Below, in pieces: positions 48,780 through 61,115 of a DNA stretch of 61,115 nt; position 1 is the first letter of the stretch, and the number at the start of each line of letters is the position of its first letter. Position numbers and translations under genes: made by a program. The notes under the pieces were generated by a model. That model made no database searches. It worked only from the letters and a program-made list of their open reading frames with translations, and had not been told where the DNA came from. Source of the stretch: Deltaproteobacteria bacterium HGW-Deltaproteobacteria-2. GTDB lineage: Bacteria; Desulfobacterota; Syntrophia; Syntrophales; Smithellaceae. The DNA is taken from NCBI GenBank assembly GCA_002840505.1, contig PHBC01000002.1, forward strand, positions 456,429 to 517,543. Direction: 5' to 3'.

Positions 48780-49235
48780 ATGAAAAAAATGCTATATTGT
48801 TTTTTAACTATCGCGATAGTCTTAGCTATTGTCTCCTGTGGTGATAAGGATCTGCCGTCGATAAATCCCGGTCTGTATGAAATTGAGTTCAAACTCGATT
48901 ATGGAGGGCAGTCACTCTCAGCCAAACAAAGAGTACGGTATAACTCCAACGGGACTTTTGAAGCGACAAACTTTAATAATGGCGTGGCCGTCGAAGAAAT
49001 TAAAGGTAAGTTCAAGATAGAGAATAAACAACTGGTATCCTATGATACTTACGCACGCGACATCACCCAAAACGGCGAATGGATAACGAAAGAACCATCA
49101 AAAGTGGAAGTTCGCAAAATCAAGAAAGGAAGTTACCAGTATTATTTTAAATTCCCCAGCGACCAAATGCGCGTGATATATAAGCAAGTTGGCATGAAAG
49201 AAGGGTGGAAAACTTACACTCGCATTAGCGACTAA
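48780..49235 (+). CDS. Small lipoprotein of unknown function
   Basis: 151 residues. Lipobox A-I-V-S-C at about residue 20; the mature part is a ~130-residue beta-rich domain (PGLYEIEFKLDYGG, NGTFEATNFNNG, KGKFKIENKQLVSYD). The last residues end in KTYTRISD. CCGAGGAG precedes the ATG. It is convergent with the giant surface gene. The length and strand order resemble the small DUF-type lipocalin-like lipoproteins, but no family is claimed. Confidence 0.7.
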   Translation: MKKMLYCFLTIAIVLAIVSCGDKDLPSINPGLYEIEFKLDYGGQSLSAKQRVRYNSNGTFEATNFNNGVAVEEIKGKFKIENKQLVSYDTYARDITQNGEWITKEPSKVEVRKIKKGSYQYYFKFPSDQMRVIYKQVGMKEGWKTYTRISD

Positions 49236-49341: not shown

Positions 49342-52300
49342 TCAGTTTCCGTTAACCCATTTTGCGGCATCCTGAACAGAGTTCTGATCAAACTTGAAGC
49401 GGAAACGGACAAAAGGACCCTGGGCAGTATAATTTGCATCGGAAAAATCTTTATCTTCAAAGCCTGTCAGATTATAACCCAGACTAAGCCAGGCATTTTG
49501 TGCTATGTTATAGCCAATGGAAACACCGGTACAGTAATCAAACACTGATGCGTTCCATGAATGAAGTATGCTTCCCTGTACACCGATATCCCAATTTTTG
49601 CTGATATCGTAGCGTCCTTCCGCTCCGAACAGATCTGTATAGCCGCTGTAGTCACTGTCGTATATTTTTTCCTGCACATACTTGGCGCCATAATGCAGCG
49701 AAGCTTCCATGTCTTTCCTTGGATGATAGTTAACCATCAAATTGTCCACCAGTCTCCAGGTATCGTAATTGGTGCCGGAACCGCTTTGATTATCAATAAT
49801 AAAATCCAGTCGATTCAAAGCAATTAATTTGGTCTGCGGCGGACGGTAAACCAGGCCTTGACGTAAATCGGCTTTGACTGTGTTCATCCCCGTGACAGCG
49901 GAAGTCTGGAAGTACTGGAGACGCGCCGACAAGGCCCAGTTGCTGTTCACCTCTTTCACAAAACCGCTTATTAAACCCCATTTATTCTCACTCTGGGCAA
50001 AACGGAACTCCAGACGGTTGTCCCATGTAAGATTTTTGATCTGATAGGTTGCACCTCCGGAAACAGCGGTAAAATCTTCATGGTTGCCCGACGCTGAAGT
50101 GACATTGCCTGACGCGGGTTGAACATTTGTGTTGAACTGATAGTGCTCGGACTTGGCCACCGTCTGACTTCGTTCCACTCCCGCGTCGACTTTCCAGTTT
50201 TTGTTCACCTGCCAGTTTTGTTTCATTCCGACATTTGCAAAAACACGTTCGTCATTTTCGTTGAACTGCCGTTCAACACTGCTGTTGATGGTGGCGCCGT
50301 TCCAGGGTGAATAACGCATGCCCACTCTGGTGTTCTGTGTATTGGCTCCCGAGCCCCAGGTAAATTCATGAGCAGCCAGCAGGATCAGGTTTTTGGTTGC
50401 AGCAAATTCGGCGCCAACTGTAGTGCGGGTCGGGAAATCGATGTTGTCGTTGCTTCCGATGGATTGAGCGTGATTTGCCGACAAGGTCAGACGGTCATAC
50501 AGGGTCAGCACTTTCCCGCCCAGTGTCAGTTGATTGGATTCTTTCCTGCTGCCGTCTCCTAAACTGTCATTGGCATGCAAAAAGCCCACAGACGCGCCAT
50601 AGTTCTTTTCGGAATAGCCGAACTTGCCTTCGGCCATATCCCGTGTCGCGTCAGTCATTAAGTTATATTGACGATAGACATTCGCGCTGGCATTGATAAT
50701 ATCAGTAAAACGATAAGCTCCCTCAGCGCCTATTTTACGGGTGCCTGCCTCGCTGCCCGGCTGTTGTCCCATCCCAAAGCCTTCCTGCTGTTCACGGATA
50801 TAGGCTTTCGCTTCTATTTTCTTACTGGAATGCGACGCTTCCACCAGATAAGCGTTGCCGCTGCGGCTCGCGGAACCGGCATCATAATCGCTTTTCGCAT
50901 ACTCACCACGTACTTTGGTGTTTTGACCCAGTTTGTACGATGCATCCACTCCATAAAGATTGCTGCTGCGGTCGCCCTGCCCTTCACGAATATAACTTCC
51001 GCCCGCCTTCAGTTTATTGTCCATCAGTTTAACTCCGGCTCTGCCGCCGTAGGTATAATCTTTGCCGCCTTCAGAAATGGTTTCATATTCCGCGACTATC
51101 ATAATCGGGTTGAATTTTTCATCCCTGCTGTAAACCGGTTCCTTGAAGATTATCGTTCCGGCATCGTAATCAATAGAATAATCCGTAAAGCGGGTCATGA
51201 TTCTGGATAATATCAGCACTTCGCTGCGGAAACGATCCCGCACTTCAATGGTGATTTTTTCCGAGTTGGACAAAATGTTGTGACGGGACAGCCGGTAAAT
51301 GCCGGAAGTACCATCGCCGGGAATTTCATCCCGGGCATAGATCTGTTCAGTTTCGCTGGCAAAAGCGTTGATTTCAAAGTTTTTGTTCTGAAATTCTGTT
51401 TTAATACCGGTCATGCGGCGGCTGTAGCGTGAAAGTTCCGTCACGGTAAGCCCTGTGTCATAGTCTCCGAACATGGCATAAAACTGTTCCCTCTCAATCT
51501 TAATATAAAGATTTCTGGAACTGGCCGCGTCGTATTGCTGTTGTGATGTGTCACCGTAGAGCGTGTAATAGGTATCGGGATTGATCGTCTGAAACAATCC
51601 GTTAGTGTCGTTTCCCTTTGTCTTGGCAGAGTCGTAGGCCATGGTCAAAAGCCACTTACCTTTTATACGACCTTTGGCATAAAAAGCTACACGACTATCC
51701 TTATAAAGATTTTCGTCAACCCCGGCGCTTGTCAGGTTTTCCATATTACCCGACACAGTATTATAACCGGCTGTTCCTTCGGCCAAACCAACCAGAATCC
51801 AGTCGCGCATCTGGGGTTGCACATATGTTTCCGCTTCGACTGTGGCATTGTTATAACCGAGAACGACACGATAGGGACCGCTTTGGCTAACCGGCTGAAA
51901 CAGGACCTCTCCTTCCCTGCTTATCTGGACGCGGGGATGACTGCCTACGGCAGGCGGTGCTGCAAAAATGTCCGGTTGTTTTAACGGACTGAGCGTACCT
52001 TCGCGAATTTCCAGTTCCGCTCCGGCAGGGATAATAGTGTTATTGGCATCATAGAGTTCCAAACGCATTTTTACAGGCGTCTTACCGTCAGCGACATTAC
52101 CCTGGGCCGATTTAAACCGGATGGAAACAATCTCTCCACTGCGTGTTACGGATATTGTTTTCTTGAATCGTGTATTGCCAAAAGGATCAATGCCCTGAAT
52201 TTCAACAATATGCTTCCCTGTTTTTCCAAAGTCCACGCCGATATAACTGTATATAGCTTGGCCAGACTTTGCATCTATCATCCTAAAGCCGATTTGCTTT

Positions 52301-55300
52301 GCTGGCACTTCTTTGTCATCCACCAGCAGCCGCGGCGTCAGCTTGGAAGCCAGACAGATTTGGACTACATTTATCTTGTTAACAAGAATTGCTTTGTCTG
52401 CAGGAGAAAGTATCCCCTCCTTCTCCTTGATGGCTTTCTCCGATCCTTTCGCTACGGTAGAAATTCCAACTTCCGGAGATAATGACTGCGGAGGAACTAT
52501 AACCGCGGAAATTTCCGTCCGTTTTTCTCCACTTATTTTTTTAACAACATTCAAACTGGAATGATCAATAATGCGACTGGAGATAATGCTAATTTCCACA
52601 CGCCTGTTGAGCGCTCTTCCTTCCACTGTAAGGTTATCGGCAACCGGATTTTCGCTTCCTTTTCCCTCCATCAAAAGTTTTTCCGGAGGAAGCTGAAGTT
52701 TGTTCATCAGATAATGGCCGACGCTTTTAGCGCGCGCCAGAGATAGATCCTGATTATTAGCGTAATAAATGCGGTTCTGCGGTGCGATAGGCATATTATC
52801 CGTGTATCCTGTCACCTGAATATTTTCTGTACGCAGACTGGACAGCGCTTTGGCGATTTCATCCAGTTTTTTACGGTCTTCAGCATTCAATTCAGCACTG
52901 CGAATCGGGAATCGCGGCCGTAGAGTAAGAGCAATCTTGGGCATCCGGGATACCTCTACATTTTTTTTCAGGTGGATAACTGTTTCAGCCGGAGGCGTCA
53001 GAACTTGCGCTGTGCCATTGCCGTCAGCGGCAAGATAGGCCTGTGTGACAAGCGATCCGGTTTTAATATCGCCAGACGGTGTTACCCGGAAAGTAATTTC
53101 ACTACTCCAGCCGGCCGGCAGATCATTGAGCTTGAAAATCATTCCTGTTTTTCCTACCGGTTGCGGATCGGCAATCGCCGCGCTGTTCATCATAGAACTG
53201 CCCTTTTCATAGAGTACGCCCTCCGGAAGAATTACATTTAATCTTGCCGCTGTAACAGGAACAGTGCTGCTGCGCATGGAAACCGCGTAAGTAATGTTTC
53301 CTTTTTCTATTGTATTGGCAAGCTGAAGAACCAGTTCTCCTTTTGCCTGTTCAGAAACAGCCTGTTTTTTTTCAACTTGTTTTTTACGGATATGAAAGTC
53401 TGTGCGCCACAATGTACCGCCCTGTGTTTCGACAAACTGCGAAAATGCCCGCCCGGCAAAACGGCTGTTCTCGGTACAGGCAAAGGCTTCGTAACCTTCC
53501 GGCAGTGAATCCAGATCCATCTGCACCACATGCAGACCGGAACGCACGCCTTCGAAATGGAACATTCCTCGTTTATCGCTAATAACGAAAGACCCATCTT
53601 CAAGATAAATCCGCACACCTTCAACACCGTCCGGTCCGTCACCGGTTTTTTCATTGCATGCTCCGGTGGAGACGCGTCCCATCAGGATCGATTTGGTCTG
53701 CATAAAATCGTCTTTGATCTTAACTGTGAACCTGGCGGTATTTGATCTTGCTCCGGCAGCGGAACTGGCTATGGCGCTGTTAATCGCATCACCGAGGTGC
53801 GTTCCTGCAGTTACTTCAGTTATATAATCTATTGTAGCTGAAGTACTGGCCGCCAGAGTTCCGATATTAAAAGTAAGGGTTCTACCGTCAGCCGAAATAC
53901 TTGGATCGCCGGTAGCAACACCGTTTAATCTGATCGATCCTTTGCGGAGCCGGAAACCAACCGGCAGAGTATCTGCCACGCGTACGCCACCGACAGCAAC
54001 CTGCGCGTTTGTATTGTTAACAATCAATCGGTAGGGAATGAAATCACCGTGTCCCGCAGAATCCTTACTGGCACTCTTCTGCAGCCATAAAGAGGAAGCG
54101 GTAGACGGATCGAGTGGAATGTCAATGCGCTTTGCTGGACCTGCATTTATGACAAATACTTCACCGCGGGAGCCGTCAAGAATTGTGAACGGCCCGCCGG
54201 GCAGAGCCTGAATCGTTGCGGTCGCTACGGTACTGGGATAACCGTAGCCAACCGGCGGCGTAATCTGGTACCGGTAACTTCCGGGCAGTAAAAAGGGAAA
54301 ACGGTAGTCGCCTGTCGGGAAATGATACACCTTCCCGCTGCTGTCGGTAGCCGATCCGCCGCTGATGATTGTTGCCGGGTAAGTACTGACCCCGTCATCG
54401 CCATAAACCATAGCCGGCAGTCCCGTGGCGTTATTGAGCATGGTAATGGTGGCGCCATTGACCGGCAGACCGGTACTGGTGTCCAACACAATTCCGTAAG
54501 GATCAACCATTATGGTTTTCGCAGGAGGATGGTCGCTGCTGTCCGCTATATCAACATAGTTGAAAGTAAGATTATCTCCCGCTTTGATGGACAGGTTACC
54601 ATTGTATGAGTTAATCGGACCACCGTCGGTGAGCAGATATCCTGTGAATACGCCTTTATCGGGGCCGGTCTCCGTCAGGCGGATGATCTCCACATCGCCG
54701 TTAGCGGAATTTGTAATTGTAACAAATATCGTTTCAGCAACTATTTTATCCAGATTCTGATCACCATCGGTTAAACGGATGAAGACCTGATCTCCCTGAT
54801 GGATCTGGGTGGCTGCTGTAAGCGGCACCGGATGGCTGAAGTCAATAGGATCTGTGCTTCCTACAGGAACCGGATACGAAGTATAATTGACAAACGGACC
54901 AGTGACGCTGCCATTCCGGTACGCCGATTGCGACACATTGACCAGCTCGGCTGCAGGAAGAACCGGCGCATAGGTGAGCAATTCCAGGACAGATGCTGTC
55001 CGGATGACAGTAGTGACTGCCACCGCTGATGTTGCCGGTGTTGTATCCGGTGAAGAAAGTTGTGCGCTGTTGACAATCTTATCCCCCTGTACCGGATTAT
55101 TAACATTAACCTGGTAAAGGACAAGAACCCTTTTGCCGGTGGGAATCGTCCCGCCAGCGACATTTGTCGCTCCCGTACCGACATATATCGTGAGAGTATT
55201 TGGCATTGTTATATTGTAATCGGCCTGGTCTCCATCGGAAACTTTAGTAAGGGTTGTGACAACATTCGTGTCACTCACATACTTAACCTCCTTGCCACTG

Positions 55301-56304
55301 CCATAGGCATTGTCCCGGAGGACAACGAAACTGGCGGGCAGAACATCGGTAACAACAGAAGCCGAGATAGTTCCCGATGTATTGGTGGAAACCAGAATAT
55401 ACTCGAGAATATCGCCCTGTTTTGCTGTGACACCGGCCGGATAGTAGTTAATCGAGTTGTAAGAGTAGACAGTGCCTGTGCCGGCGGCGGATGTCGTGAT
55501 GTTGCGGACATACTTGGCAATCGTCGCCTGACCGCTATAAAAGGTGTTAAGGATAGCGTCTGATGTCTTCGCAGCCCCTGATGAACTGACTGATGTGGCA
55601 GTAATAGCCGCGGAAACTGTCACATCGGTTCCAGCGGTAACGATGGTTCCTGCGGTAACCGCAGCGGTAACAATTTTCTGTTCAGCCACCAGCACACCCG
55701 CAGTAGGTGCAGATGGCAAAGCAGAGGCCAGAACAATGGTTGAAGTTCCCGTGGTATTATCGGTGACACTCTGAACCATTCTTGTTTCACCGTTGATGAC
55801 TACCGTGTCGCCGACCTCTATACCGTTGATACTAGTGTTAGATGCTCCATCTGCAGGAACTACAATGTTCGTAACCGTGCTGCCGGAAGTGGTAACCGAA
55901 GCACCGAGGACAACACTGGAGGCAGGAACACCATTGACATATGTAGTGACTGTGGCGCCGGTGGTGTTGGTAACAGCTGGCGTCGGTACAATAATATTAT
56001 AGGTATCCGGACCATTGGATGATGCTGTGATGGCAAAACTGTCTGTAAGGTTCGTCCCGGCGCCGGCGTACGAGGTGCTTTGAGCCGATCCCGTGACAAT
56101 ATTCGGCGCGGCGGCAACCAGGTCGACGGTGATGGTAACACTGGCAGTGACAGTATAGGTGGCAGTACCGTCAAAGTATGTCACCTGCACCTGATTGGTA
56201 ACCTGCGTATTGGCGGCCGTGTTGGCCCAGACCGGTGCGGATATGAACAGCAATGTCCATAGCAACGCCAGTTGAATCAATATAATGTTTCTAGCCAGTT
56301 TCAT
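49342..56304 (-). CDS. Giant (2320-residue) outer-membrane protein: DUF11-like, OmpA and C-terminal barrel
   Basis: Signal peptide (about 1-27). Residues ~28-430 are a DUF11-like beta region (TVTDNTTGTSTIVL-type segment shared with the gene at 56612). Residues ~440-600 follow with a beta-domain. Residues ~600-700 look like a carboxypeptidase-regulatory/SdrD-like fold (GLPVNGATITMLNN), and ~740-860 are a DUF11 (SLWLQKSASKDSAGHGDF, VADTLPVGF). Residues ~890-970 form a second SdrD-like unit (VEGVRIYLEDG). Residues ~1130-1245 form an OmpA peptidoglycan-binding domain (FPIRSAELN; VTGYTDNMP; DLSLARAKSVGHYLM; RALNRRVEISI). Residues ~1500-2320 alternate polar/aromatic residues as a large barrel, ending GPFVRFRFKFDQ and a short tail. 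No strong ribosome-binding site; a long hairpin lies upstream. Confidence 0.85.
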   Translation of the reverse strand: MKLARNIILIQLALLWTLLFISAPVWANTAANTQVTNQVQVTYFDGTATYTVTASVTITVDLVAAAPNIVTGSAQSTSYAGAGTNLTDSFAITASSNGPDTYNIIVPTPAVTNTTGATVTTYVNGVPASSVVLGASVTTSGSTVTNIVVPADGASNTSINGIEVGDTVVINGETRMVQSVTDNTTGTSTIVLASALPSAPTAGVLVAEQKIVTAAVTAGTIVTAGTDVTVSAAITATSVSSSGAAKTSDAILNTFYSGQATIAKYVRNITTSAAGTGTVYSYNSINYYPAGVTAKQGDILEYILVSTNTSGTISASVVTDVLPASFVVLRDNAYGSGKEVKYVSDTNVVTTLTKVSDGDQADYNITMPNTLTIYVGTGATNVAGGTIPTGKRVLVLYQVNVNNPVQGDKIVNSAQLSSPDTTPATSAVAVTTVIRTASVLELLTYAPVLPAAELVNVSQSAYRNGSVTGPFVNYTSYPVPVGSTDPIDFSHPVPLTAATQIHQGDQVFIRLTDGDQNLDKIVAETIFVTITNSANGDVEIIRLTETGPDKGVFTGYLLTDGGPINSYNGNLSIKAGDNLTFNYVDIADSSDHPPAKTIMVDPYGIVLDTSTGLPVNGATITMLNNATGLPAMVYGDDGVSTYPATIISGGSATDSSGKVYHFPTGDYRFPFLLPGSYRYQITPPVGYGYPSTVATATIQALPGGPFTILDGSRGEVFVINAGPAKRIDIPLDPSTASSLWLQKSASKDSAGHGDFIPYRLIVNNTNAQVAVGGVRVADTLPVGFRLRKGSIRLNGVATGDPSISADGRTLTFNIGTLAASTSATIDYITEVTAGTHLGDAINSAIASSAAGARSNTARFTVKIKDDFMQTKSILMGRVSTGACNEKTGDGPDGVEGVRIYLEDGSFVISDKRGMFHFEGVRSGLHVVQMDLDSLPEGYEAFACTENSRFAGRAFSQFVETQGGTLWRTDFHIRKKQVEKKQAVSEQAKGELVLQLANTIEKGNITYAVSMRSSTVPVTAARLNVILPEGVLYEKGSSMMNSAAIADPQPVGKTGMIFKLNDLPAGWSSEITFRVTPSGDIKTGSLVTQAYLAADGNGTAQVLTPPAETVIHLKKNVEVSRMPKIALTLRPRFPIRSAELNAEDRKKLDEIAKALSSLRTENIQVTGYTDNMPIAPQNRIYYANNQDLSLARAKSVGHYLMNKLQLPPEKLLMEGKGSENPVADNLTVEGRALNRRVEISIISSRIIDHSSLNVVKKISGEKRTEISAVIVPPQSLSPEVGISTVAKGSEKAIKEKEGILSPADKAILVNKINVVQICLASKLTPRLLVDDKEVPAKQIGFRMIDAKSGQAIYSYIGVDFGKTGKHIVEIQGIDPFGNTRFKKTISVTRSGEIVSIRFKSAQGNVADGKTPVKMRLELYDANNTIIPAGAELEIREGTLSPLKQPDIFAAPPAVGSHPRVQISREGEVLFQPVSQSGPYRVVLGYNNATVEAETYVQPQMRDWILVGLAEGTAGYNTVSGNMENLTSAGVDENLYKDSRVAFYAKGRIKGKWLLTMAYDSAKTKGNDTNGLFQTINPDTYYTLYGDTSQQQYDAASSRNLYIKIEREQFYAMFGDYDTGLTVTELSRYSRRMTGIKTEFQNKNFEINAFASETEQIYARDEIPGDGTSGIYRLSRHNILSNSEKITIEVRDRFRSEVLILSRIMTRFTDYSIDYDAGTIIFKEPVYSRDEKFNPIMIVAEYETISEGGKDYTYGGRAGVKLMDNKLKAGGSYIREGQGDRSSNLYGVDASYKLGQNTKVRGEYAKSDYDAGSASRSGNAYLVEASHSSKKIEAKAYIREQQEGFGMGQQPGSEAGTRKIGAEGAYRFTDIINASANVYRQYNLMTDATRDMAEGKFGYSEKNYGASVGFLHANDSLGDGSRKESNQLTLGGKVLTLYDRLTLSANHAQSIGSNDNIDFPTRTTVGAEFAATKNLILLAAHEFTWGSGANTQNTRVGMRYSPWNGATINSSVERQFNENDERVFANVGMKQNWQVNKNWKVDAGVERSQTVAKSEHYQFNTNVQPASGNVTSASGNHEDFTAVSGGATYQIKNLTWDNRLEFRFAQSENKWGLISGFVKEVNSNWALSARLQYFQTSAVTGMNTVKADLRQGLVYRPPQTKLIALNRLDFIIDNQSGSGTNYDTWRLVDNLMVNYHPRKDMEASLHYGAKYVQEKIYDSDYSGYTDLFGAEGRYDISKNWDIGVQGSILHSWNASVFDYCTGVSIGYNIAQNAWLSLGYNLTGFEDKDFSDANYTAQGPFVRFRFKFDQNSVQDAAKWVNGN

Positions 56305-56414
56305 TAAACGCTCAATGGCTTATTCTGTTCAGCCAAGGTTATGGTCAACCTTAGTTGGTTTAAATCTCAAACAAGGATTCTTTTCCGTTCCGCCTATGTT
56401 AATCTACGAAATTA

Positions 56415-56446
56415 GTGCGTAGGCGTACTAAAGTACACCTACGCAC
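56415..56446 (-). other. Perfect hairpin in the operon gap before the giant gene
   Basis: GTGCGTAGG (56415-56423) pairs with CCTACGCAC (56438-56446), with GTAC/GTAC continuing the stem around a short loop. On the minus strand no T-run follows, so it is more likely an mRNA stability or processing element than a terminator. It sits in the 307-base gap between the 389-residue gene and the giant gene; the rest of that gap has no gene or recognised riboswitch. Confidence 0.6.
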
Positions 56447-56611
56447 AATCCATAAATTATCGGCCAAGGAGAAAAAACCTTCTTTCCTAATTACAAACTC
56501 ATCGTGTCTTGTCCGTAGTCTCCGGATAGACACAGTTTAATCCTTACACAATACAAAATCGTGCAGGTTGCGGAACGGCAGGATTACCGGCCGTCCCGCA
56601 TAGGGCCAAGA

Positions 56612-57781
56612 TCAGTTGACCTTGAAAATATAAAACAACTCTACCGACGCGCCCGCAGCAAGGGTGCTGACACTATATGTAACAGTATTGCCGGTTGTAA
56701 TATTGTAATCATAGCCATCGTCGGCCGCGTTTGAGTCAGTAAGAGTTGTCCCTCCGTAACTGTTTCCCGTCCCGGAGGCGGCCAGTCTGGCAGTCCCGGC
56801 CTCGTAGGTGGTGTATGGCGGCTGCGGGTCGGTAATAACCACGGTATTGACAGCACTGCTTCCGCTGTTGGTTACTGTAACGCGATAACAGACATAATCA
56901 TCCTTCTTAAATTTCACAGAAGTCTGGGTGTCCATCCAGGATCCGTTGCATGAGGTCGTCTTGGCGTCATTTACCTTCTTATCTACGGTAATTTTCGCGA
57001 TATATACCGTGGTTATGGTCTCGTCTGTCGCGGAGGCAGGCGTTCCTCCTCCATCGGCTGTGGTTGTAACGTAAATCGTCTGATCGGCGGTTGCACCGGC
57101 GGCGATCGTACCGGGAGTTACCGTCGTGGTGAAGGTCTTCCGCTCAAAGATTCCGTCACCGGCAGAAGCGGTAACAGCAGTCAGTAAAACAATTGTGGAT
57201 GTTCCGGTAGCGTTATCGGTAATAGAATCGACGTGGTATTCAGCACCACCGATGACGACAGTATCTTCGTCCTCTATCCCGTTAATCGATGAGTCGGAAG
57301 TTCCGTCACTGGGCACGGTAATAGTCGTGCTGCTACTTACAGCTGCTGCCACAGTGGTGGCTCCCAGAGTTACGCTGGCCACTGAGGTCGCAGCGGTAGA
57401 ACCGGTCGTATTAGTGCCGTCGGTGGTGACAGCCGCGCTCAGCGCATACGTATCAGGACCATTGGCATTGGAAGTTATGGTGTAATTGTAAACTTCGGCT
57501 GTGTTGGGATCTGTTGTCCCGTCTCCAGGCGCACTCAGCGTCGCCGTAGCGTAAACTAATTCAACCGTAATATCGACGGTGTCGGTTACGGCGGTCATCG
57601 ATGTACCCGCGGTGTCTTTGAAATTGACCGTGACCGTGTTGCGGATCACGGTATTGGCCGCTGTGGCGGCCTGCGCTGCCTGCGGCAGGACAAAGGCCAG
57701 CAATACCAGCAGAGCAAAGCTACCGGCAAGAGACCTCAGAACTGCCATTCTGATGTTGATAAATGTTGTTTTCATTTTCAT
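56612..57781 (-). CDS. Exported DUF11-like repeat protein
   Basis: 389 residues with a signal peptide ending AQA-A at about residue 39. The N-terminal half is paralogous to the start of the 2320-residue protein: TAANTVIRNTVTVNFKD against TAANTQVTNQVQVTYFD, then SINGIEDEDTVVIGG against SINGIEVGDTVVING, and TDNATGTSTIVL against TDNTTGTSTIVL. The C-terminal half is a DUF11 domain (DYVCYRVTVTNSGSSAVNTVVITDPQPPYTTY), ending ELFYIFKVN. Rich in Thr, Ser and Ala, with only two cysteines. Probably secreted and surface-bound. AAAGGAG precedes the start. Confidence 0.85.
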   Translation of the reverse strand: MKMKTTFINIRMAVLRSLAGSFALLVLLAFVLPQAAQAATAANTVIRNTVTVNFKDTAGTSMTAVTDTVDITVELVYATATLSAPGDGTTDPNTAEVYNYTITSNANGPDTYALSAAVTTDGTNTTGSTAATSVASVTLGATTVAAAVSSSTTITVPSDGTSDSSINGIEDEDTVVIGGAEYHVDSITDNATGTSTIVLLTAVTASAGDGIFERKTFTTTVTPGTIAAGATADQTIYVTTTADGGGTPASATDETITTVYIAKITVDKKVNDAKTTSCNGSWMDTQTSVKFKKDDYVCYRVTVTNSGSSAVNTVVITDPQPPYTTYEAGTARLAASGTGNSYGGTTLTDSNAADDGYDYNITTGNTVTYSVSTLAAGASVELFYIFKVN

Positions 57782-57937
57782 TTCTCCTTTGTTAGTTTTG
57801 TTTGTTAATTTCTTTCATTTTTTATTATTATTTAATTACATTTCTTGTTTACTGTAATCTTGCCTGTGATTTATCGGTTCATATATGACCTCCTGTTCTC
57901 TAATGTTTTTTTGTATATTTTTGACAATTAATTACTG

Positions 57938-58417
57938 TCATTTTACCCGTACCTTAAAACCGACCTGACCACTGCCGCGGGTCGGAACCACACTGACCGT
58001 CCAGCGGATGTTGGTGTATTGATCGGAAGAAGCGATTCTTTTTTCCATCTTGCCGTTGGGCAGTTTGACTTCATAGTTCAGCACGGAAGGCTTCTTGAAG
58101 GTTTTACCGCCGTCAATGGAAAAAGTTATATCCGCATCTTTGCCGAAGGCGCTACCGTTAAGATAGACCGTTCCTTTCGGAATCGCATCATCAAGAACCG
58201 CGTTGATTGCCGCTTCGTCGCCGGAATTGACGTAATTTATGGTGAAGAAAATTACTTCTCCCGGATTAACCTTGCTGGCGACAACCATTTTTTTCTCTTT
58301 GTTTACAGTAATCTCTTTTTCCGCTTTCATGCCGACGGAAATAAGCGGCTTGGCAAATACCTCCACCGATAGCGTGAGCATTAACAGCGCAATTAATAAT
58401 GGAATAATTTTTTTCAT
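57938..58417 (-). CDS. Small exported DUF11-like protein
   Basis: 159 residues. Signal peptide ends VFA-K (about residue 22). The rest is one domain with NPGEVIFFTINYVNSGDEAAINAVLDD, then GTVYLNGSAFG, FSIDGGKTFKKP, and a final strand GQVGFKVRVK, the order of a DUF11 fold. AAGGAGGA precedes the ATG. It could be the minor or initiating subunit among the cluster products (inference). Confidence 0.82.
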   Translation of the reverse strand: MKKIIPLLIALLMLTLSVEVFAKPLISVGMKAEKEITVNKEKKMVVASKVNPGEVIFFTINYVNSGDEAAINAVLDDAIPKGTVYLNGSAFGKDADITFSIDGGKTFKKPSVLNYEVKLPNGKMEKRIASSDQYTNIRWTVSVVPTRGSGQVGFKVRVK

Positions 58418-58543
58418 AATATCCTCCTTCTTTTTTATCTTTTTATAAAAGTTTACTTATTTTAGCGTTGACTGACTTATTGACGCTCAATTCATAATGC
58501 ATATCTAAACTCACCTCTCCTGCGTTCGTTCAGGATCCTGCCG

Positions 58544-61115
58544 TTAGTTGACCGTCACCTGAAAAGTTATGGTGGCAACTCCGACACTTCCGCTATGCGG
58601 CGGTAGAATACCGGTCGCTACGGCCCCTGCAGTACGACTGCCGTTGTCGTCAACCAGCAATCCCGTAATCAGCGGCAAAGCGCTACCGTCTCCTGCCACG
58701 GTTATTCCGTTCAATCGGGTGGAGTTGCTCACATAGGTGGTATAGGGCGGCAGGGGATCAGTCGCGATGACGTTGGTGGCTGTTCCGGAACCGGTATTGG
58801 TAATTGTTATACTATAGGTTACGGTATCACCCGTCACTACCGATGATTTGTCTGATGATTTAACGACGGTCAGTGCGGGCGGAAGAAGATCGCCGACGGC
58901 AAAATATGTTGAGCCGGTATAAGATATTCCCGCATTGGAAGTTATCGTCGAACCAATGCTGTTTCCTCCCCGACTAGTATAGTTACCGGATTGAGCCGAC
59001 GAACTGGCCACAAGATTCGTACTCCCCAAACCGCTTTCGGTTATTCTTACCGTCGCGCTTATAAAACTGCCGCTTACTAATTGCGCGTACCAGTTGCGCG
59101 GATCAACCGACGACATGGTGGCATCTACCGTGTTTGCGCCTGTGCTGGACATGGCAACCCTCACAACGGGCGAAGAACAGTTAATGCTATTGAGTTCAAA
59201 CGGACGGTAATTGGAATCGTCGCCTACGGGAAAGAAATATGAGCCGCCAGTTACCAAAGACCATTGTAGAGATCCGTTTACATAGCTCGATGAAGAATAA
59301 CCGGTAACGGCGCTGGAAGAAGTGTTAGTAACCGCAAGGTAATAGCTTGAAGTTGTAGCTACCTTACCGCTGGTTAATGTAAGAATATTACTTACGGTTT
59401 CATTCGCGCCAAGTGTAACGCCAGTTGAATTATTTATCGTAAGATTGTTAAATGTGGTGCTGGATGAACCGCCCAGAGCCTGGGCGGATGAGCCGTTGAA
59501 CGTAACCGTGCTTGAAGCGGGTGTGAATGTCCCGCCAGTGTTTAATGTCCAATTGCCACTGATATTGATCGCGGGTGAATTTGTACATGTATAAGTTCCG
59601 GTGGAAGATATTGTAAGATTGCCAATATTGGAGGTACCTCCGCTTTGAGAGAAAGTCCCTGTTCTGGTTCCGTCTCCAACATATAAGGCATCAGTATTCA
59701 GCGTACCCGAGCTTAAATTAACAGCCCCGTTATTAGCATCAATTCCTGCTGCAAGACCACCGGTTACGGATAAACTGCCCCCATCAATATATATAGTACC
59801 GCCGGCATTTAATAATGCGGCTAGTGCCGTAACATTATATCCATTTGTATGAAATGACACCCCCGTGGAATTGAATCCTGCCCAAAAATTATCGTTTATC
59901 TTGAGCGTTCCACTCGCATTAAAAGTTCCGTTTGTTAAAGTTAAAATGCTGAATGCCGAGGAAGAATTCGCTCCCGTTCTGATCGTTTCAGTTCCGGAGC
60001 TGTTCATTTGAACATGTGATCTGACAGTATAAGCAAATATTCCATCAACGGCAATGCTGCCACTAACAGTCAATTGTTTTCCGTAAGTATCCCAATTAAC
60101 GCTGTGCGTAAGAGTACCGTTGGCGGAAACTATAAGATCGTTTGTAACGGTATAATTCGCGTCGGTAGCCTGCAGAATCAGATTTCCCTGTGTTACAGTC
60201 AAATCATTTCCAACCGAAAATGCCTTTCCTGCACTTGTACTTGTAACTGTAGTGCTTGCGGCCCCTTTATTGATCGTCAAATTATAAAATGATGTCGCAG
60301 CACTGCCGTTGATATTAACCGCATTGCTGCCATTGAACGTGACTGTGCTGGTGCTGGGCGTGAATGTTCCTCCCGTATTTAACGTCCAATCTCCGCTTAC
60401 AGTTAAGCTGTATGCTCCACCCATAGTTAAAGTAGCGCCATTATTTATCGTAATATTACGACATAATCCACCTGCCGAACCGATAGTCGGTTGATATGTA
60501 GTGCCCGAAGAGATAGTGACATCTGTTGTTTCGGTAGGTACGCCGCCGCACCAGTTGCTTGCCGTATTCCAATCCGTGCTCGTGGTACCCAACCAGCTTC
60601 CACCCGTACAGCACCCCGGGCTGACGGTCACAATACCTGTGCCACTAAAAAATGTGTCATTTTTGTAGGTAGCAGCGGAGCTGGAAGATCCGTACGTTCC
60701 GGCAGGATAGCTAACCCCATTAAGTATTAGACAAGCCGCCGTGCTATTAGTACCGGTTGCCAAGCCGGCATTTACTCCGCTGTTTATAGTTAGTGTTCCG
60801 GTAATTGTTTCAGCAGCGGAAAATGTCTTTGTGCCGGAACCGGACAGAGTAAGGTTATTAAACGTACTGGCGCTGCTTCCACCTATTGTCTGCGATCCTC
60901 CGTTTAAATTTACCGTGCCCGAACCTGGCGTAAAGGTACCGCCATTATTAGTCCAATTACCTGCGACATTATGTGTGTATGACCCGGAGGTAAATGTGGT
61001 TCCGCTTCCTAAAATAACAGAGCCGCCGATTGTTAATCCGGTTACGCCTGAAGTAGTTGCTGTCCCGCTCAGAGTCAAATCACCGCCGATCGCGGTGGTA
61101 CCTGTTTGCAATGTT
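58544..61115 (-). CDS. Large exported beta-repeat protein, 5' end outside the window
   Basis: At least 855 C-terminal residues; the frame stays open to the right edge, so the start is missing. Three units of the pattern GNWTLNTGGTFTP...STVTFNGS...FNNLTIN (one is GNWTNNGGTFTPGSGT) spaced irregularly, typical of beta-helix surface proteins. A Trp-rich unit SWLGTTSTDWNTASNWCGG with paired cysteines and GVPTETTDVTIS is also present. The last ~130 residues are DUF11 (TYSITITNTGSGTATNVIATD, LPPYTTYVSNSTRLNG), matching the C-terminus of the gene at 56612. No anchor at the C-terminus: ends TITFQVTVN. A secreted fibre-like or adhesin-like role is likely. Confidence 0.82.
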   Translation of the reverse strand, partial: TLQTGTTAIGGDLTLSGTATTSGVTGLTIGGSVILGSGTTFTSGSYTHNVAGNWTNNGGTFTPGSGTVNLNGGSQTIGGSSASTFNNLTLSGSGTKTFSAAETITGTLTINSGVNAGLATGTNSTAACLILNGVSYPAGTYGSSSSAATYKNDTFFSGTGIVTVSPGCCTGGSWLGTTSTDWNTASNWCGGVPTETTDVTISSGTTYQPTIGSAGGLCRNITINNGATLTMGGAYSLTVSGDWTLNTGGTFTPSTSTVTFNGSNAVNINGSAATSFYNLTINKGAASTTVTSTSAGKAFSVGNDLTVTQGNLILQATDANYTVTNDLIVSANGTLTHSVNWDTYGKQLTVSGSIAVDGIFAYTVRSHVQMNSSGTETIRTGANSSSAFSILTLTNGTFNASGTLKINDNFWAGFNSTGVSFHTNGYNVTALAALLNAGGTIYIDGGSLSVTGGLAAGIDANNGAVNLSSGTLNTDALYVGDGTRTGTFSQSGGTSNIGNLTISSTGTYTCTNSPAINISGNWTLNTGGTFTPASSTVTFNGSSAQALGGSSSTTFNNLTINNSTGVTLGANETVSNILTLTSGKVATTSSYYLAVTNTSSSAVTGYSSSSYVNGSLQWSLVTGGSYFFPVGDDSNYRPFELNSINCSSPVVRVAMSSTGANTVDATMSSVDPRNWYAQLVSGSFISATVRITESGLGSTNLVASSSAQSGNYTSRGGNSIGSTITSNAGISYTGSTYFAVGDLLPPALTVVKSSDKSSVVTGDTVTYSITITNTGSGTATNVIATDPLPPYTTYVSNSTRLNGITVAGDGSALPLITGLLVDDNGSRTAGAVATGILPPHSGSVGVATITFQVTVN

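Follow-up and report, generated by a model that had tools for sequence, protein, structure and literature searches.

Introduction

The subunits of chaperone-usher systems are described as incomplete Ig-like domains in which the N-terminal donor extension of one subunit completes its neighbour (PMC12122975). DUF11 domains, common in the stalks of surface proteins, are described as CnaA-like isopeptide domains named CLIPPER, in which a lysine of the first strand bonds to an asparagine of the penultimate strand with an aspartate as the presumed catalyst, namely Lys715, Asn806 and Asp748 in structure 9IFR (PMC12617251). Isopeptide domains have also been divided so that the two resulting chains react with each other, as in SpyTag/SpyCatcher, DogTag/DogCatcher and the RrgA split (PMC6539128, PMC8878318, PMC5333627). 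The archaeal thread of Saci_0406 is reported to be a donor-strand filament with a proposed inter-subunit bond from the N-terminal amino group to an asparagine two subunits away (PMC9715654), in an article whose text does not contain the term DUF11. DUF11 domains are further reported in the anchor of the clostridial F-ENA, a different setting (PMC11952670), and in methanogen proteins proposed to stabilise aggregates (PMC10787695), and passages of two other articles mention them in passing only (PMC8779699, PMC12282271).

Among the matches listed in the open PMC literature, there was no description of the gene set reported here or of a naturally split DUF11 domain. To our knowledge, self-sealing inter-chain isopeptide joints are known only as laboratory inventions (Spy, Dog), from phage capsids and from an unusual archaeal filament. 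Here we describe a gene cluster that probably encodes an outer-membrane-anchored donor-strand fibre, with joints that may be sealed by intermolecular isopeptide bonds, and whose genes look, from their sequences, like a widespread and so far unnamed bacterial surface-fibre kit.

Results

Organization of the gene cluster

The window analysed is a stretch of 61,115 nucleotides from the Smithellaceae genome of Deltaproteobacteria bacterium HGW-Deltaproteobacteria-2 (G000:C2:456429-517543), the last 12 kb of which are occupied by four minus-strand genes:

58544-61114 (feature drawn to the window end, 61115), minus strand: first gene, putative tip or cargo protein; 856 codons in the window, 5' end open
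57938-58417, minus strand: S, 159 aa, predicted exported single DUF11 domain, truncated like the acceptors; conserved partner
56612-57781, minus strand: D, 389 aa, predicted exported subunit with donor N-terminus and acceptor C-terminus (ORF and class statistics of its relatives)
49342-56304, minus strand: giant barrel protein, 2320 aa (ORF, Pfam/NCBIfam and AF2)

The intergenic gaps of 126-307 bases are too small for another sizeable gene, as proposed in an earlier sequence-only reading of this DNA. Only the 3' two thirds of the first gene fall inside the window, whose edge interrupts it; in the assembly the whole gene encodes 1278 aa (L016:2973-6809), with a variable N-terminal region and one DUF11 domain at the C-terminus. 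TIGR01451 (DUF11-type) scored above cut-off in all four products. PF01345 passed its gathering score in two products only, the first and the 159-aa protein; it fell short of that score in the 389-aa protein and was unlisted for the giant. The earlier observation of the cluster was confirmed, with two corrections given below. The 159-aa product, noted earlier as a lone DUF11-like domain, is a single DUF11 domain above the cut-offs of both families. The stretches said to be shared by three products are real, but each occurs in two only: SINGIE..DTVVI..TGTSTIVL is confined to the 389- and 2320-aa products, and PPYTTY to the first and 389-aa products, where it forms a loop inside the last DUF11 domain and not an end. 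Promoter and terminator scans of the cluster scored near their shuffles.

Three neighbouring features were recorded. A lipoprotein-like ORF of 151 aa lies on the plus strand just past the 3' end of the giant gene (window 48780-49235), with no Pfam match and a weak NCBIfam match, far under cut-off, to an XrtG extension-like protein. At about L016:15647-15790 (G000:C2:527646-527789), 48 codons are 69% identical to the giant C-terminus and are apparently the remnant of a decayed copy. A chaperone-usher operon (L016:7250-13254, G000:C2) encoding two SCPU proteins, a PapD chaperone and an usher is located directly upstream of the cluster on the same strand, starting about 1.7 kb past the right end of the window. 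It was considered as a part of the system and set aside, since none of its proteins had a match in the loci of G016, G021 and G022; the PapD-type chaperone of G000, as sole query, gave no BLAST match in these three loci.

Conservation and co-occurrence

The order first-S-D-giant was found in the family genomes G016, G021, G022 and G019 and in a second cluster of the same genome, on contig C6; in the G016 and G022 clusters it runs across contig breaks. The C6 cluster (L017:7735-17779) is intact and repeats this order with proteins of 394 (start uncertain), 175, 626 and 2093 aa, and its giant has four DUF11 stretches and an SdrD_B match, with no match to an OmpA domain. Within the family sample of 51 genomes, with up to seven candidates scored per genome, at least seven encode a giant beyond OmpA-only matches (G000, G016, G019, G021, G022, G023 and, distantly, G025), that of G023, from the same genus, on a contig of 3434 bases. 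The co-conserved gene set anticipated from the window was recovered, and in the relatives that have the genes these are not scattered but recur in order. The layout of the G025 locus (L056) may be older or of another kind: a 1401-aa OmpA-barrel protein comes immediately behind a DUF11 protein that is at least 1959 aa long and does not end in a truncated DUF11 domain.

In 394 genomes of the phylum, with up to nine candidates scored per genome and S liable to be missed, the giant was found in 23 (E 1e-20) and S in at least 14 (E 1e-12), all 14 being among the 23. The other nine giant-positive genomes have no S at E 1e-12; some of them are fragments or distant matches and others have no such explanation, which counts against the present reading.

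A contig scan with barrel alignment A1 returned 431 candidate stretches, 355 of which encode relatives, and the best 80 of these 355 loci were analysed. About half of the 80 belong to Sphingomonadales, the taxa represented being Geobacteraceae, Desulfosarcina, Desulfuromonadales, Zixibacteria, Nitrospiraceae, Alcanivorax, other Gammaproteobacteria, Burkholderiales, Campylobacteraceae and many Sphingomonadales. The order or a close variant of it extends from Syntrophales to Sphingopyxis, Alcanivorax, Campylobacteraceae and Nitrospiraceae. For 61 of 62 giants, S was located on the same strand no more than 6 kb upstream; this count is restricted to giants with at least 3.5 kb of upstream sequence and leaves out duplicates of family genomes (L057, L058, L059, L077). 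A DUF11 gene is found immediately upstream of the giant in 57 of the 62, and D-S-D-giant is the commonest exact order (35/62), other layouts having additional D genes, no first protein, or a downstream DUF11 protein (Alcanivorax). Across 72 clusters, 180 of 192 gaps measure at most 120 bases. All of these counts are taken on clusters other than that of the window. Barrel relatives are also present on 25 plasmid records, and among 15 of these 25 they carry names such as DUF11, OmpA family, TonB-dependent receptor or hypothetical.

The truncation, donor, residue and completion statistics given below refer to the 72 barrel ORFs that reach 1200 aa and have their 5' end intact (L059 was kept though it duplicates L048); they cover the relatives together with the C6 paralogue, but not the cluster of the window. 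A reduced set was obtained by removing duplicates and 39 loci treated as Sphingomonadales. Signal peptides were called by a simple hydrophobicity rule, and gene starts are first-start guesses.

Most partners end in truncated DUF11 domains

Two truncated C-terminal domains of the window cluster were assigned as putative acceptors:

58547-58882, minus strand: putative acceptor of the first protein (last 112 residues), a DUF11/CLIPPER domain without its last two strands; Lys1174 at 58859-58861, Asp1208 at 58757-58759
56615-56998, minus strand: putative acceptor domain of D (residues 262-389), stopping at the strand before the missing pair; Lys268 at 56978-56980 and Asp318 at 56828-56830, both motif-assigned

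The first protein ends in ..ATITFQVTVN, D in ..ELFYIFKVN and S in ..VGFKVRVK. A complete-domain model was built from the internal DUF11 copies of these loci, with the asparagine at column 105 and the domain reaching about column 126. This model matched 131 of 135 D-class proteins (first proteins included), in 114 of which the last domain lies at most 12 aa from the C-terminus. These C-terminal domains stop at or before column 100 in 107 cases, 92 of them at column 93 or 94, and extend past column 106 in the other seven, against the truncation rule. Internal domains, many of which also trained the model, reach the 110s or beyond in 198 of 235 cases. In 17 of the 131 proteins the last domain stops short of the C-terminus by more than this distance; of the 12 that were listed, 11 end in the same last strand, the exception being the 1959-aa protein of G025. 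Outside Sphingomonadales and with duplicates removed, the last domain ends before the asparagine column in 42 of 51 proteins.

The retained residues differ between the classes. The acceptor aspartate is present in 116 of 118 D and first proteins vs 11 of 57 S proteins, in 45 of which the position is occupied by asparagine. The lysine, located by a motif upstream of the aspartate because a fixed HMM column failed owing to a variable loop, was found in 116 of 117 D and first proteins (shuffle expectation about 33) vs 22 of 57 S proteins (expectation 37). The spacing of lysine and aspartate, 50 residues in the window D and 56 in the D-like domain of the giant, is longer than the 33 residues of 9IFR, so the triad in D-type domains is a motif assignment. 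Most partners' last domains thus have lysine and aspartate and no complete Lys/Asp/Asn domain in one chain, while the internal copies are complete. S appears to keep the acceptor-shaped fold, mostly without the catalytic pair; we infer that S may be a reversible partner of the donor hairpins, acting as a chaperone or cap.

The following protein in most cases carries the missing strands

The candidate donors of the window, and a domain of the giant in which donor and acceptor parts are joined, are the following:

57566-57661, minus strand: putative donor hairpin of D (residues 41-72); Asn48 at 57638-57640
56119-56217, minus strand: putative donor hairpin of the giant (residues 30-62); Asn37 at 56194-56196
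55015-55533, minus strand: D-like DUF11-type domain of the giant, whole in one chain; Lys264, Asp320 and Asn412, motif-assigned

After the signal peptide, D begins ANTVIRNTVTVNFKD.. and the giant ANTQVTNQVQVTYFDG.., both with the pattern of the missing penultimate strand bearing the asparagine and of the strand that follows; the window S has no donor hairpin. Among proteins with a signal-peptide-like stretch, the donor motif was found in 59 of 71 giants, 68 of 71 D proteins (57/60 adjoining the giant and 11/11 others) and 37 of 47 first proteins, as against 65 of 798 control ORFs. S proteins have the motif in 23 of 57 cases but at a different offset, and in 1 of 25 outside Sphingomonadales. 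Without Sphingomonadales and duplicates, the motif was retained in 27 of 37 giants, in 24 of 27 adjoining and 8 of 8 other D proteins, and in 7 of 15 first proteins. Of the 12 giants (of 71) failing the strict motif, those of L075, L090 and L109 show the strand by eye and are misses of the rule. The donor asparagine is replaced by serine in the L060 giant and by aspartate in the L071 giant, and two Alcanivorax giants have no clear donor motif.

Each acceptor C-terminus was then extended in silico with the N-terminus of the protein that follows it in its operon, S proteins being skipped, and the product scored with the complete-domain model. The gain exceeded 5 bits in 75 of 115 operon pairs (median 9.1 bits), compared with 7 of 115 for random secreted N-termini, 3 for S N-termini, 3 for shuffled and 4 for reversed sequences. 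Without Sphingomonadales and duplicate loci, 23 of 48 pairs passed (median 4.7 bits); five control draws gave 0-1 of 48, and S N-termini gave none. Mere reach past the asparagine column did not discriminate (109 of 115 operon pairs, 78 shuffled, 67 reversed).

The joint is found both fused and split among relatives. The window giant runs ..VLVLYQVNVNNPVQGDKIVNSAQLSSPD.. through a whole D-like domain and the G016 giant is fused likewise (..VLVLYQVTVNNPVQGDKIFNSARL..), while in G021 a 424-aa protein ends in ..VLVLYQATVNP and the giant begins, after its signal peptide, APVQADKVVNNAKIN.., and G022 is split there too. That genes are fused exactly where the model predicts the contact is strong evidence that both pieces work together.

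These data also bear on the nature of the joint. The subunits could form a donor-strand fibre with non-covalent joints, in which lysine, aspartate and asparagine are inherited from ordinary DUF11 domains and do not react between chains. The geometry of a reaction in trans is presumed, two giants have serine or aspartate for the donor asparagine, and the lysine-aspartate spacing of D-type domains exceeds that of 9IFR, all of which would suit such joints. Acceptors, however, keep lysine and aspartate almost always, unlike the mostly deprived S of the same fold, and most donors retain the asparagine although it stands on a separate chain. We regard purely non-covalent joints as unlikely.

The first protein is variable upstream of its last domain

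The first protein of the window aligned with its counterparts in G016, G021 and G022 over no more than the last 110 or so residues, with 58-69% identity. A domain scan (E 0.01) of nine first, upstream or downstream proteins from other loci detected binding-type domains in three: an H-type lectin domain in one, a lamin-tail domain with an H-type lectin match just under cut-off in another, and laminin-G-like and glycine-rich domains in the third. The other six have DUF11-type domains only, plus one weak MG2 match. Variable N-termini and binding-type domains are what exchangeable tips would look like.

The giant is predicted to end in a very large outer-membrane barrel

Downstream of its D-like domain, the giant was divided as follows:

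53695-54081, minus strand: complete DUF11 repeat (about residues 742-870)
52603-52911, minus strand: OmpA domain (residues 1132-1234; PF00691, E 5.9e-19)
51823-52407, minus strand: predicted all-beta region preceding the barrel (residues 1300-1494; AF2 secondary structure and pLDDT)
49390-51810, minus strand: predicted outer-membrane beta-barrel (residues 1499-2305)

This layout agrees with the DUF11 repeats (TIGR01451), internal OmpA domain and C-terminal barrel read earlier from the sequence. The AF2 models cover the barrel of the giant; the one built with 57 sequences had a pLDDT of 83.6 and a pTM of 0.75 and predicts the expected barrel, while a run with 8 sequences was poor (pLDDT 52) and was not used. 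Forty strands were counted in residues 1503-2305, leaving out the short strands of 1663-1732, and 32 of the 40 lie from residue 1733 on; we take the modelled barrel to have some 32 to 40 strands. The alternating hydrophobicity of the 32 strands was 2.02, whereas shuffles averaged 0.98 and did not exceed 1.37. Most of the structural matches listed are outer-membrane barrels, FimD ushers coming first (Z 15.3, rmsd 9.8, 328 residues aligned), with porins at Z 13-14 and SprA-type structures 8gl6 and 6h3i at low TM-scores. Given the low global TM-scores and large rmsd, no kinship is claimed for the barrel. Ushers carry a plug within the barrel sequence, and in the model the stretch 1663-1732 falls between strands 8 and 9 of the count, much like such a plug. 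The Usher family PF00577 had no match in the window giant or in 13 diverse giants. Searched against PDB sequences, the barrel alignment had a single weak match, to a glycoside hydrolase, and DUF11 had nothing beyond weak protocadherin matches. The failure of any named secretion type to fit, remarked on in the sequence-only reading, is supported.

The OmpA domain of the window giant was also found in 7 of the 13 diverse giants and not in the other 6, for which reason OmpA was rejected as a defining feature. The earlier view of one chain spanning wall and membrane consequently fails as a general design: with OmpA in 7 of 13 giants and not found in the second giant of the same genome, that function is not the core of the system.

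Two further alternatives start from the giant, and both appear quite improbable. The giant could mainly be a secretion pore for which the truncated C-terminal DUF11 domain is a cargo sorting signal, as in type 9 secretion, with no chain of subunits. Cargo of this kind would account for a variable N-terminal part upon a conserved C-terminal domain, and the very large barrel, with the type 9 translocon and FimD among its many barrel matches, would suit a pore; yet a sorting signal would need no last strands from the next protein, whereas most D proteins and giants bear donor hairpins and the fused giant holds the completed domain. Alternatively, the chain could be a periplasmic scaffold that ties the outer membrane to the wall and stays inside the cell. 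The internal OmpA domain, between repeats and barrel in 7 of 13 giants, argues for this and against a surface fibre, as it implies a periplasmic section in a protein whose N-terminal half must reach the outside; against the scaffold stand the 6 of 13 giants in which OmpA was not found, and the binding-type domains and highly variable first proteins, which fit the surface better.

Discussion

Export signals, truncation, donor motif, residues, gene order and co-occurrence, as read from the sequences, are consistent with a donor-strand fibre assembled as follows. The exported partners would end in a DUF11/CLIPPER domain without its last two strands, with lysine and aspartate kept (acceptor), and D proteins and the giant would start, past the signal peptide, with the missing hairpin bearing the asparagine (donor). 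Pairing in trans, each donor would complete the neighbouring acceptor, the giant's hairpin that of D and the hairpin of D that of the first protein or of another D, giving a chain in gene order from the first protein (tip or cargo) through one or more D proteins to the giant. Since asparagine would stand on a different chain from lysine and aspartate, an inter-chain isopeptide bond would be expected to form by itself. The giant would close the chain by its donor hairpin and hold it by its barrel, in some species also by OmpA at the wall, and the fibre may exit through the giant's own barrel or by another route. The acceptor-shaped S would bind donor hairpins reversibly as a chaperone or cap, and the tips may bind glycans or surfaces, in adhesion.

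The earlier suggestion that the repeat-only partners are filament or coat proteins holds insofar as they look like fibre or coat subunits; it overlooked the incomplete ends that interlock with the next protein. An incomplete last DUF11 domain and a following N-terminus with the missing strands would turn the partners into ordered, interlocking subunits. Independent, ordinary DUF11 adhesins lying side by side by chance, with N-terminal strands serving their own chains, are in keeping with the frequency of DUF11 in surface-protein stalks (PMC12617251) but very hard to reconcile with the conserved order and co-occurrence, the completion test and the split and fused joint.

More tentatively, and with some doubt prevailing, the cluster may encode a natural tag/catcher polymer. 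Each joint would be one isopeptide domain shared by two proteins, with a covalent lock that forms when they touch and needs no sortase. A barrel of up to about 40 strands would serve the base protein as both exporter and anchor, and S, as a catalytically dead copy, would separate the reactive ends until assembly. Such fibres would form a separate, widespread Gram-negative surface-fibre class. If this is true, self-sealing inter-chain isopeptide joints are a natural fibre-building principle in many Gram-negative bacteria, the co-conserved genes now labelled DUF11, OmpA family, TonB-dependent receptor or hypothetical acquire a function, and the loci are a source of new tag/catcher pairs.

Compared with known systems, the proposed fibre resembles chaperone-usher pili (FimA/FimC/FimD) in its incomplete subunits with an N-terminal donor, here recognized by sequence, in its outer-membrane barrel and in its tip-to-base order. 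It differs from them in that the donor would give two strands rather than one, in the DUF11 fold with isopeptide residues, and in a barrel protein that bears its own donor, the giants having no Usher family match. The type 9 secretion protein SprA is likewise a very large outer-membrane barrel and a structural match, but the global TM-scores are low, no shared sequence family was found and the surrounding genes are different. The likeness to the archaeal thread lies in donor strands and an inter-subunit bond, which there involves other residues, in a host that we take to have no outer membrane. With the DUF11/CLIPPER domain the system shares its family and residues: by manual count, the Lys/Asp/Asn spacings in an ordinary internal copy, the first DUF11 domain of the second giant, are 34 and 57-58, matching the 33 and 58 of 9IFR. 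Known DUF11/CLIPPER domains are complete and form the bond within one chain, whereas here the last two strands would sit on another protein; and while the engineered tag/catcher pairs were made in the laboratory, the split in these loci appears to be natural.
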